Shown: positions 31,918 through 59,005 of the stretch, in pieces | Numbering within the stretch: the stretch's first letter is position 1 | Layout of the letters: each line of letters starts with the position of its first letter | From: Siphonodentalium dalli | Taxonomy: Eukaryota; Mollusca; Scaphopoda; Gadilida; Siphonodentaliidae | Length of the DNA: 64,000 nucleotides | NCBI GenBank assembly: GCA_032622095.1 | Contig: CP136067.1 | Location: 50,879,899-50,943,898, forward strand | Direction: 5' to 3' | Notes under the pieces: model-generated | The model's input: only the letters and a program-made list of their open reading frames with translations | Database searches by the model: none | What the model was told of the DNA's origin: nothing | Translations under genes and position numbers: made by a program

Positions 31918-32132
31918 TTAAAGTTCAGTTAGGTACGGTAGTAATGAAATGGTCGATTATTGTTGCAGTCTTAAGTGTCGTTCTTTTTATGGATGGCAAA
32001 ACGTTTGTCAATGTCCAGGTGGACGGAAATGTGCAGTTATCAAGCGAGTTTTAGGATACAATGGTGTAAATGTTTTCCATAGGCATCAGTGCAAACGTTT
32101 GAGTGTATACTGTTTACAATATAATTCCCAGG

Positions 32133-32708
32133 TCCAAAATTTTATTTAAGGCTGAAAGATTGACATTTGTGGTAATGTTTTTTTTATGCAAAAAGGTCAT
32201 AACCGATTAGCAGGGAATTCACCTTTAAATCTTGTGTTTTCGCAACTAAGGTCAGAACCGTACTAAAAAATGTCATATTTTATTTTACACCACACCATAA
32301 CATTCAAACTTCACTACAAAGGGTTAATTCCTGTGACAATGGCTATTTTAACTATGGCAAATCATAGGGAAGAGATGTGTTGTATCATGTATGATCTATC
32401 CTAAAAACACAATGCTATTGTCCAAAATTTTATTTAAGGCAGAAAGATTGACATTTGCGGGAATGTTTGTGTGCAAAAAAGTCATAACCGATTAGCAGGG
32501 AATTCACCTTTAAATCTTGTGTTTTGTAACTAAGGTCAGAACCCTATTAAAAAATAATGTCATATTTTATTTTACACCACACCATAAAATTCAAACTTCA
32601 CTACAAAGGGTTAATTCCTGTGACATTGGCTATTTTACCTATGGCAAATCATAGGGAAGAGGTGTGATGTATCATGTATGCTCTATCTTAAAAAACACAA
32701 TGCTATTG
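32133..32708 (+). repeat. Tandem duplication of a 288-bp unit
   Basis: TCCAAAATTTTATTTAAGG begins both copies (32133 and 32421). The order of AACCGATTAGCAGGGAATTC, CACCACACCATAA, TACAAAGGGTTAATTCCTGT and ATCATAGGGAAGAG is kept. Identity is high by eye. No coding frame. Confidence 0.85.
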
Positions 32709-33483
32709 ACCAATCAGGGCCTAGTGTCTATTTTATTCTAAACTATAATTTCTTCCCGCATCCGCTAGATGTCACCGAACCATATTTACACCAGCGTAAC
32801 ATTTAAAGAGAACCATCAGTGGTACAGCTATGGCTGAATAAGTTCATTGTATCATCCTTACAGATATCCCATCATGATCATATGCCTTGTCATGTTTCAT
32901 CGATTTGATTGATGTAATGATATCTTCGGATGTTAAGTTGACATTAGAGAGGGATTTATCGCTCAGAGGTGACAATTTGGAAGACTACAGTTAGAAACAT
33001 TGAGGACAGGGTTGGTATAAAGGTCTTGTTTAGCAGACTTGCTCTTTCAAAACCATCGAAATATACATGTAGATTATCATTGTTGTTAGAGAGAGGTGGA
33101 ATAGCGTTTTTATGCTTTGTATTCGTTATTTATTCTACACTGTGACAAAAGAACTTAGCGGAATGATGGATGCAGCTTAATATCCTTCTGCAGCTGGACT
33201 TCATATATCATATTTATTTTTTTCGTGTTTAATTGTGATATTTTTATTAACAGTAATTCGTAGTTTCTTATAATTAGACCATTCGGATGTTTTATTGTAC
33301 TTCAATGCCAATTTCCGCATACGATCTCGTTTCTGAATCATCACAGTGTCACGTAAATCCGAATTAAAGCAGTGTTTCTCTCTTGGTCGGATTAATGTAT
33401 ATGTTTCGGTATTGTCGCATCTACAATATATACTATGAATATGTTAGTTGAAACATTGATATTGTCGGTAGCTTCAATCGCTT

Positions 33484-40637: not shown

Positions 40638-40799
40638 CTCTAAAATGGCAGCGGCTATTCGCCATCGGATGGCAAATAGCGATTCTACCGATATGCGCTA
40701 TTTGCCATCCGATGGTATTTTAAATAAAAGAAAACATATCATATCACCACAATACGCTATTATAACGAGGATTCCTACCGCCTTCGTGATCATTAGGCC

Positions 40800-41669
40800 C
40801 AGTTGACGGTCGGTTGACCACCAACAGATATCCTGGGGGGATGGCAAATAAGAAATCGACAAATTTTGAAGGAAATTTCGTATAGTTTGAACATTTAGTG
40901 GCACAAGCTGTCGCTATATGGCCACATAATCATCATTTGTACCCGCCTTACTGAAAACCCGGACCAGTTGACCGTCGGTTGACCACCCACAGATATCCTG
41001 GGGGGGGGTGGCAAATAAGAAATCGACAAATTTTGAAGGAAATTTCGTATAGTTTGAACATTTAGTGGCACAAGCTGTCGCTATATGGCCACATAATCAT
41101 CATTTGTACCCGCCTTACTGAAAACCCGGACCAGTTGACCGTCGGTTGACCACCTACATATATCCTGGGGGGATGGCAAATAAGAAATCGACAAATTTTG
41201 AAGGAAATTTCGTATAGTTTGAACATTTAGTGGCACAAGCTGTCGCTATATGGCCACATAATCACCATTTGTACCCGCCTTACTGAAAACCCGGACCAGT
41301 TGACCGTCGGTTGACCACCCACAGATATCCTGGGGGGATGGGAAATAAGAAATCGACAAATTTTGAAGGAAATTTCGTATAGTTTGAACATTTAGTGGCA
41401 CAAGCTGTCGCTATATGGCCACATAATCAACATTTGTACCCGCCTTACTGAAAAACCGGACCAGTTGACCGTCGGTTGACCACCCACAGATATCCTGGGG
41501 GGATGGCAAATAAAGAATCGACAAATTTTGAAGGAAATTTCGTATAGTTTGAACATTTAGTGGCACAAGTTGTCGCTATATGGCCACATAATCATCATTT
41601 GTACCCGACTTACTGAAAACCCGGACAAGTTGACCGTCGGTTGACCACCTACAGATATCATGGGGGGAT
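40800..41669 (-). repeat. Left array of 165-bp units (about 5 copies)
   Basis: TTGACCGTCGGTTGACCACC recurs at 165-bp steps, each time with CTGGGGGGATGGCAAATAAG, AATTTTGAAGGAAATTTCG and GCTGTCGCTATATGGCC. Orientation is opposite to the right array. Units differ by few bases. Confidence 0.92.
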
Positions 41670-44215
41670 TCCTTCAAAATTTGTCGATTCCTTATTTGCC
41701 ATCCCCCCAGGATATCTGTGGGTGGTCAACCGACGGTCAACTGGTCCGGGTTTTCAGTAAGTGGGGTACAAATGGTGATTATGTGGCCATATAGCGACAG
41801 CTTGTGCCACTAAATGTTCAAACTATACGAAATTTCCTTCAAAATTTGTCGATTTCTTATTTGCCAACCCCCCAGGATATCTGTGGGTGGTCAACCGACG
41901 GTCAACTGGTCCGGGTTTTCAGTAAGGCGGGTACAAATGATGATTATGTGGCCATATAGCGACAGCTTGTGCCACTAAATGTTCAAACTATACGAAATTT
42001 CCTTCAAAATTTGTTGATTTCTTATTTGCCATCCCCCTGGATATCTGTGGGTGGTCGACCGACGGTCAACTGGTCCGGGTTTTCAGTAAGGCGGGTACAA
42101 ATGATGATTATGTGGCCATATAGCGACAGCTTGTGCCACTAAATGTTCAAACTATACGAAATTTCCTTCAAAATTTGTCGATTTCTTATTTGCCATTCCC
42201 CCATGATATCTGTAGGTGGTCAACCGACGGTCAACTGGTCCGGGTTTTCAGTAAGGCGGGTACAAATGATGATTATGTGGCCATATAGCGACAGCTTGTG
42301 CCACTAAATGTTCAAACTATACGAAATTTCCTTCAAAATTTGTCGATTCCTTATTTGCCATCCCCCCAGGATATCTGTGGGTGGTCAACCGACGGTCAAC
42401 TGGTCCGGGTTTTCAGTAAGGCGGGTACAAATGATGATTATGTGGCCATATAGCGACAGCTTGTGCCACTAAATGTTCAAACTATACGAAATTTCCTTCA
42501 AAATTTGTCGATTCCTTATTTGCCATCCCCCCAAGATATCTGTGGGTGCTCAACCGACGGTCAACTGGTCCGGGTTTTCAGTAAGGCGGGTACAAATTAT
42601 GATTATGTGGCCATATAGCGACAGCTTGTGCCACTAAATGTTCAAACTATACGAAATTTCCTTCAAAATTTGTCGATTTCTTATTTGCCATCCCCCCAGG
42701 ATATCTGTGGGTGGTCAACCGACGGTCAACTGGTCCGGGTTTTCATTAAGGCGGGTACAAATTATGATTATGTGGCCATATAGCGACAGCTTGTGCCACT
42801 AAATGTTCAAACTATACGAAATTTCCTTCAAAATTTGTCGATTTCTTATTTGCCATCCCCCCAGGATATCTGTGGGTGGTCAACCGACGGTCAACTGGTC
42901 CGGGTTTTCAGTAAGGCGGGTACAAATGATGATTATGTGGCCATATAGCGACAGCTTGTGCCACTAAATGTTCAAACTATACGAAATTTCCTTCAAAATT
43001 TGTCGATTTCTTATTTGCCATCCCCCCAGGATATCTGTGGGTGGTCAACCGACGGTCAACTGGTCCGGGTTTTCAGTAAGGCGGGTACAAATGATGATTA
43101 TGTGGCCATATAGCGACAGCTTGTGCCACTAAATGTTCAAACTATACGAAATTTCCTTCAAAATTTGTCGATTTCTTATTTGCCATCCCCCCAGGATATC
43201 TGTGGGTGGGCAACCGACGGTCAACTGGTCCGGGTTTTCAGTAAGGCGGGTACAAATGATGATTATGTGGCCATATAGCGACAGCTTGTGCCACTAAATG
43301 TTCAAACTATACGAAATTTCCTTCAAAATTTGTCAATTCCTTATTTGCCATCCCCCCATGATATCTGTAGGTGGTCAACCGACGGTCAACTGGTCCGGAT
43401 TTTCAGTAAGGCGGGTACAAATGATGATTATGTGGCCATATAGCGACAACTTGTGCCACTAAATGTTCAAACTATACGAAATTTCCTTCAAAATTTGTCG
43501 ATTTCTTATTTGCCATCCCCCCAGGATATCTGTGGGTGGTCGACCGACGGTCAACTGGTCCGGGTTTTCAGTAAGGCGGGTACAAATGATGATTATGTGG
43601 CCATATAGCGACAGCTTGTGCCACTAAATGTTCAAACTATACGAAATTTCCTTCAAAATTTGTCGATTTCTTATTTGCCATCCCCCCAGGATATCTGTGG
43701 GTGGTCAACCGACGGTCAACTGGTCCGGGTTTTCAGTAAGGCGGGTACAAATGATGATTATGTGGCCATATAGCGACAGCTTGTGCCACTAAATGTTCAA
43801 ACTATACGAAATTTCCTTCAAAATTTGTCGATTTCTGATTTGCCATCCCCCCAGGATATCTGTGGGTGGTCAACCAACGGTCAACTGGTCCGGGTTTTCA
43901 GTAAGGCGGGTACAAATGATGATTATGTGGCCATATAGCGACAGCTTGTGCCACTAAATGTTCAAACTATACGAAATTTCCTTCAAAATTTGTCGATTTC
44001 TTATTTGCCATCCCCCCAGGATATCTGTGGGTGGTCAACCGACGGTCAACTGGTCCGGGTTTTCAGTAAGGCGGGTACAAATGGTGATTATGTGGCCATA
44101 TAGCGACAGCTTGTGCCACTAAATGTTCAAACTATACGAAATTTCCTTCAAAATTTGTCAATTTCTTATTTGCCATCCCCCCTTGATATATGTAGGTGGT
44201 CAACCGACCGTCAAC
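41670..44215 (+). repeat. Right array of 165-bp units (about 15 copies)
   Basis: GACGGTCAACTGGTCCGGGT recurs every 165 bp (for example near 42231, 42396, 42561, 42726, 42891). Units are nearly identical, which implies recent amplification or homogenisation. The array is three times longer than the left one, so most of it has no pairing partner in a fold-back. Confidence 0.92.
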
Positions 44216-44444
44216 TGGGCCTAATGATCACGAAGGTGGTAGGAATCCTCGTTATAATAGCGTATTGTGATGATATGATATGTTTTCTTTTATTTAAAAT
44301 ACCATCGGATGGCAAATAGCGCATATCGGTATAATCGCTATTTGCCATCCGATGGCGAATAGACACTTCCCTCTAAAATACACCATTACAGTAATAAGTT
44401 CCAGATCGTTTCTCAGGCCCCCGATGTGCACTACTGCGCGCACA

Positions 44445-44965
44445 CCCATTAAATGCCCATTAAAGGCCCATTAATGATATACCATTACAAATCCATTAAA
44501 AAACCCATGATTTTCCCGTTAAAAACCCATTAAAATACCCCCTTAATATGTAACCTTTCACAGCCATTAAATTGCCATTATTATAAGAAAGTTAACGGCC
44601 ATTAAAGCTAAATTATTTTAATGGGTATGTGTATGGCCATTAAATTAACTGGGGTAATGGGCATTAAATGAAGGCGGGAACTAAAGGCCATTAAAACATT
44701 AATGGCAACATTCTGTGTTTAATTGCCATTAAAACCCCTTTAAAATCCAATGAAAGGTTACATATTAAGGCCCATTAAATATAATGGGCATTAAAATGGG
44801 TCATTATAATGGGCATTAATTTTGGGAGGTCAATTTTGATGCCCATTAAATTTATGGGGGCAGGGTGCCCACAAAATTGATGGCCATTAAATACAGCCTA
44901 TATTTAATGGTTGGTTCATGGGGCATAATAAGGCCCATTAAATATGATGGGCATGAAAAACTGGT
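44445..44965 (+). repeat. Left subterminal domain of GGCCATTAA words
   Basis: Variants of GCCCATTAAA, GGCCATTAA, TAATGGGCATTAAA and ATGGCCATTAAA occur in both orientations, roughly every 15-25 bp. The density falls sharply after about 44965. In CACTA elements such repeats bind the transposase (family knowledge). Confidence 0.85.
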
Positions 44966-48039: not shown

Positions 48040-49390
48040 TGTTTTGCACTATCCGTCCGTACATGCGTCTGTGTGTGCGACCGTACGTACGCCCGTCCGA
48101 TGTTTGTTCATGTCATAACTTGAACAGTAGTGCTCCGATCTCAATGAAATTAGGTATGGATGTTCACTACAATGAGGACATTAAATAGAGGGTTCCATCG
48201 TTTTGTTCCGATTTTCCATTCTAGAGTTATTCATCTTTCTTTATCTGGAAATGTTGGCTTTTGCATGGTATGCCTGGTGTCAGTTCATGTTGTAACTTCA
48301 ACAGTTTTGATGGGATCTCAATGAAATTTGGTATGGATGTTCACTACAATGAGGGCATTAAATAGAGGGTTCCGTCGTTTTGTTCCGATTTTCCATTCTA
48401 GAGTTATTCATCTTTCTTTATCTGGAAATGTTGGCTTTTGCAAGGTATGCCTGGTGTCAGTTCATGTTGTAACTTCAACAGTTTTGATGGGATCTCAATG
48501 AAATTTGGTATGGATGTTCACAACTATGAGGACATTAAATAGAGGGTTTCATTGCTTTGTTCCGATTTTCCATTCTAGAGTTATTCATCTTTCTTTATCT
48601 GGAAATGTTGGCTTTTGCATGGTATGCCTGGTGTCAGTTCATGTTGTAACTTCAACAGTTTTGATGGGATCTCAATGAAATTTGGTATGGATGTTCACAA
48701 CTATGAGGACATTAAATAGAGGGTTTCATTGTTTTGTTCGGAGTTTCCATTCTAGAGTTATTCATTTTTGATTATCTGGAAATGTTGGATTTTTGGTCCG
48801 TCTGGTGTCTGTGCTTGTCATAACTTGAACAGTAGTGATCGGATCTCAATGAAATTTTGTATGGATGTTCACTACTGTGAGGGCACATGCAATAAAGGGG
48901 TCCATCATTTTTTTTCGGATTTTACATTCTAGAGTTATTCATCTTTGTTTATCAGGAAATGATGGCTGTTTGGTATGTATGCATGGTGTCAGTTCATGTT
49001 GTAACTTCAACAGTTTTGATGGGATCTCAATGAAATTTGGAATGGATGTTCACTACTATGAAGACATTAAAAAGAATCTTCCATCGTTTTGTTCGGATTT
49101 TCAATTCTAGAGTTATACATCTTCGATTATCTGGAAATGTTGGATTTTTGGTCCGTCTGGTGTCTGTTCGTGTCATAAATTGAACAGTAATGCTCGGATC
49201 TCAATTAAATTTGGTATGGATGTTCACCATTATGAGGACATTTAATGGCACATTCAACTATTTGTCTTGTTTTGTTTTTTTGTTCTATAGTTATTCATCT
49301 TTGTTTATATGAAAATGCTGATTTTTGGGTCCATCTGTCTGAGTATAGCAGTCATATTTTATAGATATGCCCACACTAGGCGGTATGTAA
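48040..49390 (+). repeat. Tandem repeat, ~177-bp unit, about seven copies
   Basis: TATGGATGTTCAC recurs at 48154, 48332, 48509, 48686, 48861, 49042 and 49215. Each unit has TCTCAATGAAATTTGGTATG, GAGGACATTAAATAGAGGGT, TTCTAGAGTTATTCATCTTT and TCTGGAAATGTTGG. Inner units are closer to each other than the outer ones. Open frames across it are incidental. Confidence 0.9.
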
Positions 49391-58486: not shown

Positions 58487-59005
58487 GCTTAAAAAGATTC
58501 TTACCTTAATATTTTTATGTTCACTTTATAAACTTCACTGAGTCATCTTTGTCATGTATTGAATTTTATATCTTTTGTTAACAGTTTATAAATCATGTAT
58601 ATCTCATGTTTGTTATTTTAATTTATGTGTTTATTATCATTAAATCAAGTTACATTCCTTAAAAAGATTCTTACCTTAATGTTTTTATGTTCACTTTATA
58701 AACTTCACTGAGTCATCTTTGTCATGTATTGACTTTGATATCTTTTGTTAACAGTTTATGAATCATGTATATCTCATGTTTGTTATTTTAATTTATGTGC
58801 TTATTATCATTAAATCAAGTTACATTCCTTAAAAAGGTTCTTACCTTAATGTTTTTATGTTCACTTTATAAACTTCACTGAGTCATCTTTGTCATATATT
58901 GAATTTGATATCTTTTGTTAACAGTTTATAAATCATGTATGTATCATGTTCGTTATTATATTTTATGTGTGTATTATCATTAAATAAAGTTATCATTTAA
59001 AATAA
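58487..59005 (+). repeat. Tandem repeat, 170-bp unit, three copies
   Basis: CTTAAAAAGATTCTTACCTT begins units at 58488, 58658 and 58828. TCACTTTATAAACTTCACTG, TTTTGTTAACAGTTTAT and ATTATCATTAAATCAAGTTA are shared by all. Identity is very high between the first two. The unit end TTAAATAAAGTT recalls a retroelement 3' end but no other support exists. Confidence 0.9.

Follow-up and report, generated by a model that had tools for sequence, protein, structure and literature searches.

The window analysed here is a 64,000-nucleotide stretch of the genome of the scaphopod mollusc Siphonodentalium dalli (contig CP136067.1, positions 50,879,899 to 50,943,898 of the forward strand; C7:50879899-50943898 in the 2.23 Gb on 9 contigs that we searched). 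At window positions 40647-44370 it carries a foldback element, flanked by perfect 9-bp direct duplications, whose two inverted arms are tandem arrays of a 165-bp unit. The element belongs to a dispersed family with two fixed kinds of end, termed A and B, with 9-bp duplications at its insertion sites and with inverted arms of 165-bp units that vary in number. We are confident that, taken as a whole, the family is best explained as a non-autonomous foldback DNA transposon that is mobilised in trans, likely by a transposase of the Mutator-like element (MULE) type, and whose arms seem to change in place after insertion.

A foldback element without a core

The insertion in the window is bounded by the word CTCTAAAAT, found at 40638-40646 on the left and again at 44371-44379 on the right. 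Directly inside it lie the A-type terminal 9-mer GGCAGCGGC (40647-40655, plus strand) and the B-type terminal 9-mer GGAAGTGTC (44362-44370, minus strand; GACACTTCC on the plus strand). These open an A-side terminal flanking domain with a short inverted repeat of its own (40647-40808, plus strand) and a B-side domain that is its inverted copy (44209-44370, minus strand). Aligning the two sides revealed that the outermost ~160 bp are inverted repeats with few differing bases, three of which fall within the terminal 9 bp. Tandem Repeats Finder recovered two 165-bp arrays of opposite sense, one at 40799-41669 (5.3 copies, 96% matches) and the other at 41669-44218 (15.5 copies, 97%), and an anchor count gave 5 units for the A arm (plus strand) and 15 for the B arm (minus strand). 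The arms meet at 41668-41669, with the core absent. A first-pass annotation, made from the letters of the window alone, had described perfect 9-bp direct repeats around ~160-bp terminal inverted repeats, and about 5 and about 15 opposed units that meet near 41669 without a core; both descriptions hold.

As a single strand, the central part of the element (41190-42150) folds into one long hairpin of -554.9 kcal/mol, compared with -117.4 ± 3.9 for 20 dinucleotide shuffles. No stop-to-stop frame of at least 90 codons overlaps the element, the longest being one of 88 codons that enters from outside, and an Rfam search of the window gave no match. The flanking domain and the unit have in common the 12-mer GGATGGCAAATA. 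Sharing of this kind is more than chance would readily give (6 of 2000 single-base shuffles), and the 12-mer is not specially conserved among units, as 56 of 165 windows score higher; a role in binding transposase is only a lead that the sequence offers.

A dispersed family with 9-bp target-site duplications

Searching the genome with a 35-mer of each end, allowing at most one mismatch, recovered 156 A ends and 150 B ends, and none for the reversed-pattern controls. Some of these ends are copies of one insertion on contig C7, discussed below. The first 100 places were listed for each end type; in several scripts of the analysis the pattern matching could skip imperfect matches, and some degenerate ends may have escaped notice. 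A query with the first 663 bases of the element gave 1400 first-look candidates, and the best 40, which were scored, all matched. In the 39 copies outside the window, the alignment begins exactly after CTCTAAAAT in 26, one to nine bases earlier in 12 and nine bases later in one.

We then read the flanks of 37 facing end pairs, chosen among listed ends and fetched loci with their flanks still unseen (C5:214330425 and C3:283173632, for instance, are listed pairs outside this sample). A perfect 9-bp duplication was present in 31 of the 37 pairs, and at least 8 of 9 bases agreed in 33. Identical flanks are shared by two site pairs (C3:71506431 with C3:111278964, and C3:185021115 with C3:185058436), which leaves 35 independent sites, 29 of them with a perfect duplication. 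Among duplication lengths of 5 to 12, tested on 35 of the pairs, perfect matches came from 9 only. As a control, left and right flanks were crossed between sites, and 4 of the 1190 combinations reached 8/9, all four from sites with identical flanks.

Because 31 of 37 facing end pairs carry perfect 9-bp duplications, the flanking 9-mers are duplicated target-site sequence and lie outside the repeat. The first-pass annotation had pointed to other copies as the place to look for such duplications and had allowed that the flanking words might belong to the repeat itself; the duplications do recur, and we reject the second possibility, as the 9-mers vary between sites and the alignment begins right after the word in 26 of 39 copies. 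Across the 31 duplication words from those 35 pairs with at least 8 of 9 bases in agreement, T stands at position 2 in 22 and A at position 8 in 18, a weak symmetric preference.

Two end types and a variable centre

The A and B ends differ in three of their terminal 9 bases, and the bases that follow are the same. In all nine complete copies found regardless of their terminal 9 bases (the window copy, L011, L015, L016, L019, L020, L023, L026 and L027), one end is of type A and the other of type B, or a near variant; the pairs read later were selected as A facing B and are uninformative on the rule of pairing. An element with two B ends (C5:1959479-1967673) has the perfect duplication ATTATATAA, and the A end is therefore not strictly required. 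Both end types, along with the perfect duplication CTGCCAGGA, are also present in a 367-bp copy on C4, whose unit and A-side parts have an identity of ~82%. The end types therefore seem to predate the recent copies. A search for variant ends returned C7 copies only.

Centres could be read in 16 independent copies (17 rows, L024 and L028 being duplicates). The arms are directly joined in 15 of them, through 11 different junctions; with 16 and 11 mismatches respectively, those of L019 and L020 are poorly resolved. The window junction recurs: it is the same in L005, has a 4-bp deletion and one substitution in L016, and is flipped with respect to the A and B ends in L015, a single case of the outcome expected from recombination between inverted arms. 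L026 alone among the 16 retains other sequence between its arms, 137 bp long. The family therefore has or had a middle domain and, since this one copy keeps a piece of it, the core-less form is probably a deletion product.

Querying the genome with these 137 bp and short edges gave 2295 candidates, the best 40 of which were scored and grouped into 36 places. A listed A or B end is found within 60 kb at 29 of these places, and at seven there is none so near; in 21 of the 36 the match exceeds 250 bp and consists of tandem ~145-bp copies. Longer runs of this 145-bp middle-domain repeat, with no listed A or B end nearby, were seen at C5:236796124-236800039 and C8:71773354-71774606 (B ends on C8 being unlisted), and are possibly a separate element or a satellite.

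Arms that appear to change length in place

The number of units in the two arms varies across the complete copies (5/15, 17/13, 8/13, 21/9, 12/7, 10/13, 0/12, 16/9 and 5/6). We compared 540 aligned units from 26 elements, with the duplicated sites L009, L022 and L024 dropped. Units of the same arm diverge by 2.61%, units from opposite arms of one element by 2.67%, and units of different elements by 2.99%. For 364 of the 540 units the nearest neighbour was in the same element; 20 shuffles of the labels gave about 241, and never more than 256. In the window copy the short arm diverges by 2.9% (4 units), the long arm by 2.1% (14 units) and the arms from each other by 2.5%. Given such similar divergences within and between them, the two arms look alike in age, and the recent amplification of one arm only, which the first-pass annotation had read from the near-identity of the units, finds no support in this copy.

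A set of related copies lies on C7 between 18.66 and 25.57 Mb. In this region of ~6.9 Mb one flank was listed some 37 times, mostly next to the B end of the element, and the first few B ends point the opposite way to the others; the region is possibly pericentromeric or a large duplicated cluster. Beyond all 27 listed minus-strand B ends in the region the same flank was found, at 298, 308 or 338 bp. Because of this common flank, the copies look like a single insertion carried along by a duplicated segment. Of the 29 A ends in the region, 26 face a B end 2.7-49.1 kb away; for the other three the distance is 124-311 kb, and they were not counted as pairs. Of 72 exact matches to a 103-mer of the unit, 70 fall within this region, where they reach up to 28 kb from the A end at 21996960 and up to 39 kb from the A end at 18710384. 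Among the groups entered, 24 of 25 spacings shorter than 2.6 kb deviate from a whole number of 165-bp units by no more than a tenth of a unit, where chance would give 20%. From these sparse matches we infer that the long C7 copies contain unbroken unit arrays. The distance from the middle domain to the B end, at 20 listed C7 places, is 3.3-3.5 kb at 10, 3.7-4.8 kb at seven and more than 80 kb at three. As it stays at 3.3-4.8 kb in 17 of the 20, it is mainly the A arm that varies on C7. A continuous satellite array that would account for the same-strand B ends of C7 was also considered and rejected, since four 1-kb samples are free of the unit (C7:21.40 Mb, C7:22.60 Mb, C3:269.50 Mb and C8:66.90 Mb) and the B ends share a flank.

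Two copies on C4, with B ends at 138141895 and 139002131, agree in unit spacing, both near the B end and through the centre, and differ by 9.7 kb in one arm. In the longer copy a block of 3,622 bp (~22 units) is repeated in register, a pattern that speaks for amplification there. On C6, unit matches extend ~41 kb inward from the B end at 181465218. The differences in length (2.7-49 kb) among copies with one flank point to change in place; a short copy may have shrunk from a long one, or a long one have grown from a short one. We give about even chances to the more specific proposal that the foldback arms act as a satellite nursery, in which the C7 insertion changed its length in place from 2.7 to 49 kb, mainly through its A arm, and the C4 arm gained a higher-order repeat, these changes being read as growth.

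Arm length might instead vary mainly during transposition, through aberrant gap repair or template switching, and the observation that both arm length and junction differ among copies at different sites agrees with this. However, copies of what appears to be a single insertion differ as well, the C7 pairs spanning 2.7-49 kb, and the two C4 copies differ by their 9.7 kb in one arm despite their common spacing. We therefore regard such an origin of most of the variation as unlikely, and favour change in place.

A second way for half an element to become a tandem array was observed at L022 (C4:148722000-148731500), where a 539-bp flank, the A end and the A arm form a head-to-tail repeat. The A ends read there, three in number, share this flank, and more A ends are listed up to 148746052.

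Class assignment and the likely source of the transposase

Several features place the family among foldback elements. The long inverted arms consist of tandem repeats in variable number (5 and 15 units here, other numbers in eight further complete copies), the copies are dispersed and mobile, with target-site duplications, and a middle domain was found in one of 16 independent centres. The 9-bp duplications, together with this structure, fit a cut-and-paste transposase acting in trans. MULE transposons leave duplications of about 9 bp (8-11), in agreement with the perfect matches obtained at 9 bp alone. The first-pass annotation had tentatively classed the element with foldback and some Mutator-like elements. 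The foldback part is borne out by the duplications at other sites and by the inverted arms; the Mutator-like part stays an inference, albeit the best one for mobilisation in trans, no copy with a transposase having been found.

In the mechanism that we propose, a transposase supplied in trans, most likely of the MULE superfamily, would act on the A and B ends and insert the element with a 9-bp stagger. Following insertion, unequal exchange or replication slippage would make the arms longer or shorter in place, the units would stay alike through exchange between the two arms, and the original middle domain would be lost from the palindromic centre, at points that vary. The window copy, with 5 units in its A arm and 15 in its B arm, would be one such core-less product.

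Several observations weigh against this explanation. Four of the 37 end pairs have no clean duplication (C9:52474225, 6/9, which fits a 1-bp deletion; C3:196678007, 4/9; C9:126222768, 6/9; C4:264852317, 2/9), and a search with the joined flanks found no empty site for the window insertion. No transposase frame is present in any copy read. The PF10551 (MULE) search, in which 150 of 813 first-look candidates were scored, placed none inside an element with listed ends, and when distances to 227 listed ends were taken, a single one of the 150 came within 60 kb, at 12.4 kb beyond the element in question. The search for IS1595-type transposases (PF12762), described below, likewise found none inside an element with listed ends, and the longer relative encoding a MULE or other transposase, for which the first-pass annotation had suggested a search, did not appear among the scored matches and listed ends. 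As to the arms, the apparent identity of the C7 insertion is drawn from the flank on the B side, nested insertions could add to some lengths, and the change may have run in either direction.

One of the MULE families in this genome leaves 9-bp duplications at L042 and L047 (judged by eye, with one end base ambiguous) and imperfect ones at L037 and L057, and MULE-type activity therefore is or was at hand; nothing ties this MULE family to the foldback elements. The 30 MULE loci fetched contain no element sequence, and a single end-like match was seen in them, of 17 bases with 4 mismatches, in L057. The family of L037, L042, L047 and L057 is ~2.3 kb long, and one of its ends holds GCGGCTATT, which also occurs in the foldback A end, maybe by chance. 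L051, L054 and L055 represent a MULE family with frames of ~400 codons (L051 and L055) and 16-bp minisatellites at the edge of the loci; in L055 two minisatellite blocks are mutually inverted, perhaps marking a second foldback-like family.

The same foldback transposon could also be served by a transposase of another superfamily with a possible 9-bp duplication, above all Merlin (IS1595-like), which makes duplications of 8-9 bp. The genome has 62 matches to DDE_Tnp_IS1595, several with open frames of more than 500 codons. None of them lies inside an element with listed ends (227 ends), one of the 62 lies closer than 60 kb to a listed end, at 36 kb outside it, and all 31 perfect duplications are of 9 bp, never 8; we consider this source improbable. 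A satellite or segmental duplication that mimics a transposon, through local formation of palindromes and chance flanking words, would suit the satellite-like stretches of the unit (~41 kb on C6, the 3,622-bp in-register block on C4) and an end count that comes partly from one duplicated C7 region, but identical ends in different flanks, with perfect 9-bp duplications at 29 of 35 independent sites, refute it as the sole explanation and leave it hardly any credence. The P superfamily, to which Galileo belongs, was set aside too, as its target duplications are 7-8 bp long, those of Galileo being shorter than 9 bp, and 31 of our 31 perfect cases are 9 bp. Helitrons and Helentrons, which can carry satellites, are not known to have target-site duplications or long terminal inverted repeats, and this element has both.

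Relation to known foldback elements

Foldback elements are a known kind, to which this family is a new addition, closest to Tetris and Tm1. Open-access literature on foldback elements with tandem repeats, satellites or higher-order repeats yielded no closer case; an earlier naming in Repbase or Dfam is possible.

Tetris of Drosophila virilis is a non-autonomous foldback element with an outer flanking domain and a variable number of ~220-bp arm repeats. It has duplications of 8-10 bp and a variable middle domain, its arm repeats expand into satellite arrays, an autonomous copy was not found, and three structurally complete copies are reported (PMC4079207). Our family resembles it in combining a flanking domain with variable arm repeats, in its variable middle domain, in the short stretch common to flanking domain and repeat, and in that no autonomous copy was found. 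It is set apart by the length of its 165-bp unit, by many more copies with readable duplications, by the differences in length among copies with the same flank, and by its two end types.

Tm1 of Meloidogyne belongs to the Phantom subclass of Mutator/Foldback elements, and 45 of its 53 elements with 8-10 bp duplications have 9 bp (PMC3169594). The two families share mostly 9-bp duplications, composite inverted repeats with variable tandem repeats, a terminal motif that differs between the ends, and many copies without a transposase. Tm1 differs in its repeats of 13-15 bp and in some copies that encode a Phantom-type MULE transposase (PMC3169594); no coding copy turned up in our family, whose unit measures 165 bp and whose two terminal 9-mers agree at 6 of 9 positions. 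Galileo, a Drosophila element of the P superfamily, is similar in its foldback form, in arm tandem repeats that expand and contract independently, in exchange between copies and in derivatives that consist of the two arms only, and differs in having a P-type transposase (PMC3573991). Rehavkus also has 9-bp duplications and a minisatellite near its inverted repeat (PMC6446971). The Phantom and Rehavkus subgroups of MULEs are marked by a FLYWCH or PHD finger in the transposase, and the copies of the present family that we read yielded no transposase to set beside theirs.

Foldback elements, Tetris among them, have been proposed as a source of satellite DNA (PMC4079207). The present family offers, in a chromosome-scale assembly, many exact target-site duplications along with apparently paralogous copies whose arms range from a few units to tens of kilobases. 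With such a set of copies, the order of insertion, loss of the middle domain, change in arm length and rise of higher-order repeats becomes testable from sequence. If the changes in length are real and are read as growth, a transposon arm would have been caught turning into satellite DNA at many intermediate lengths within one genome. Inverted arms of this size are, moreover, natural sites of hairpin formation and rearrangement.

Other features of the window

A very abundant, CATTAAA-rich repeat adjoins the insertion at 44434-44600 and accounts for 38 of the 40 scored matches of the joined-flank query, which had 2981 first-look candidates. The window contains further tandem arrays at 48106-49246 (177 bp), 58488-58997 (170 bp) and 32132-32713 (287 bp), none of which matches the sequence of the element. 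It also holds an 800-codon frame with a reverse transcriptase domain (RVT_1, E = 5e-40) and a TatD-like stretch.
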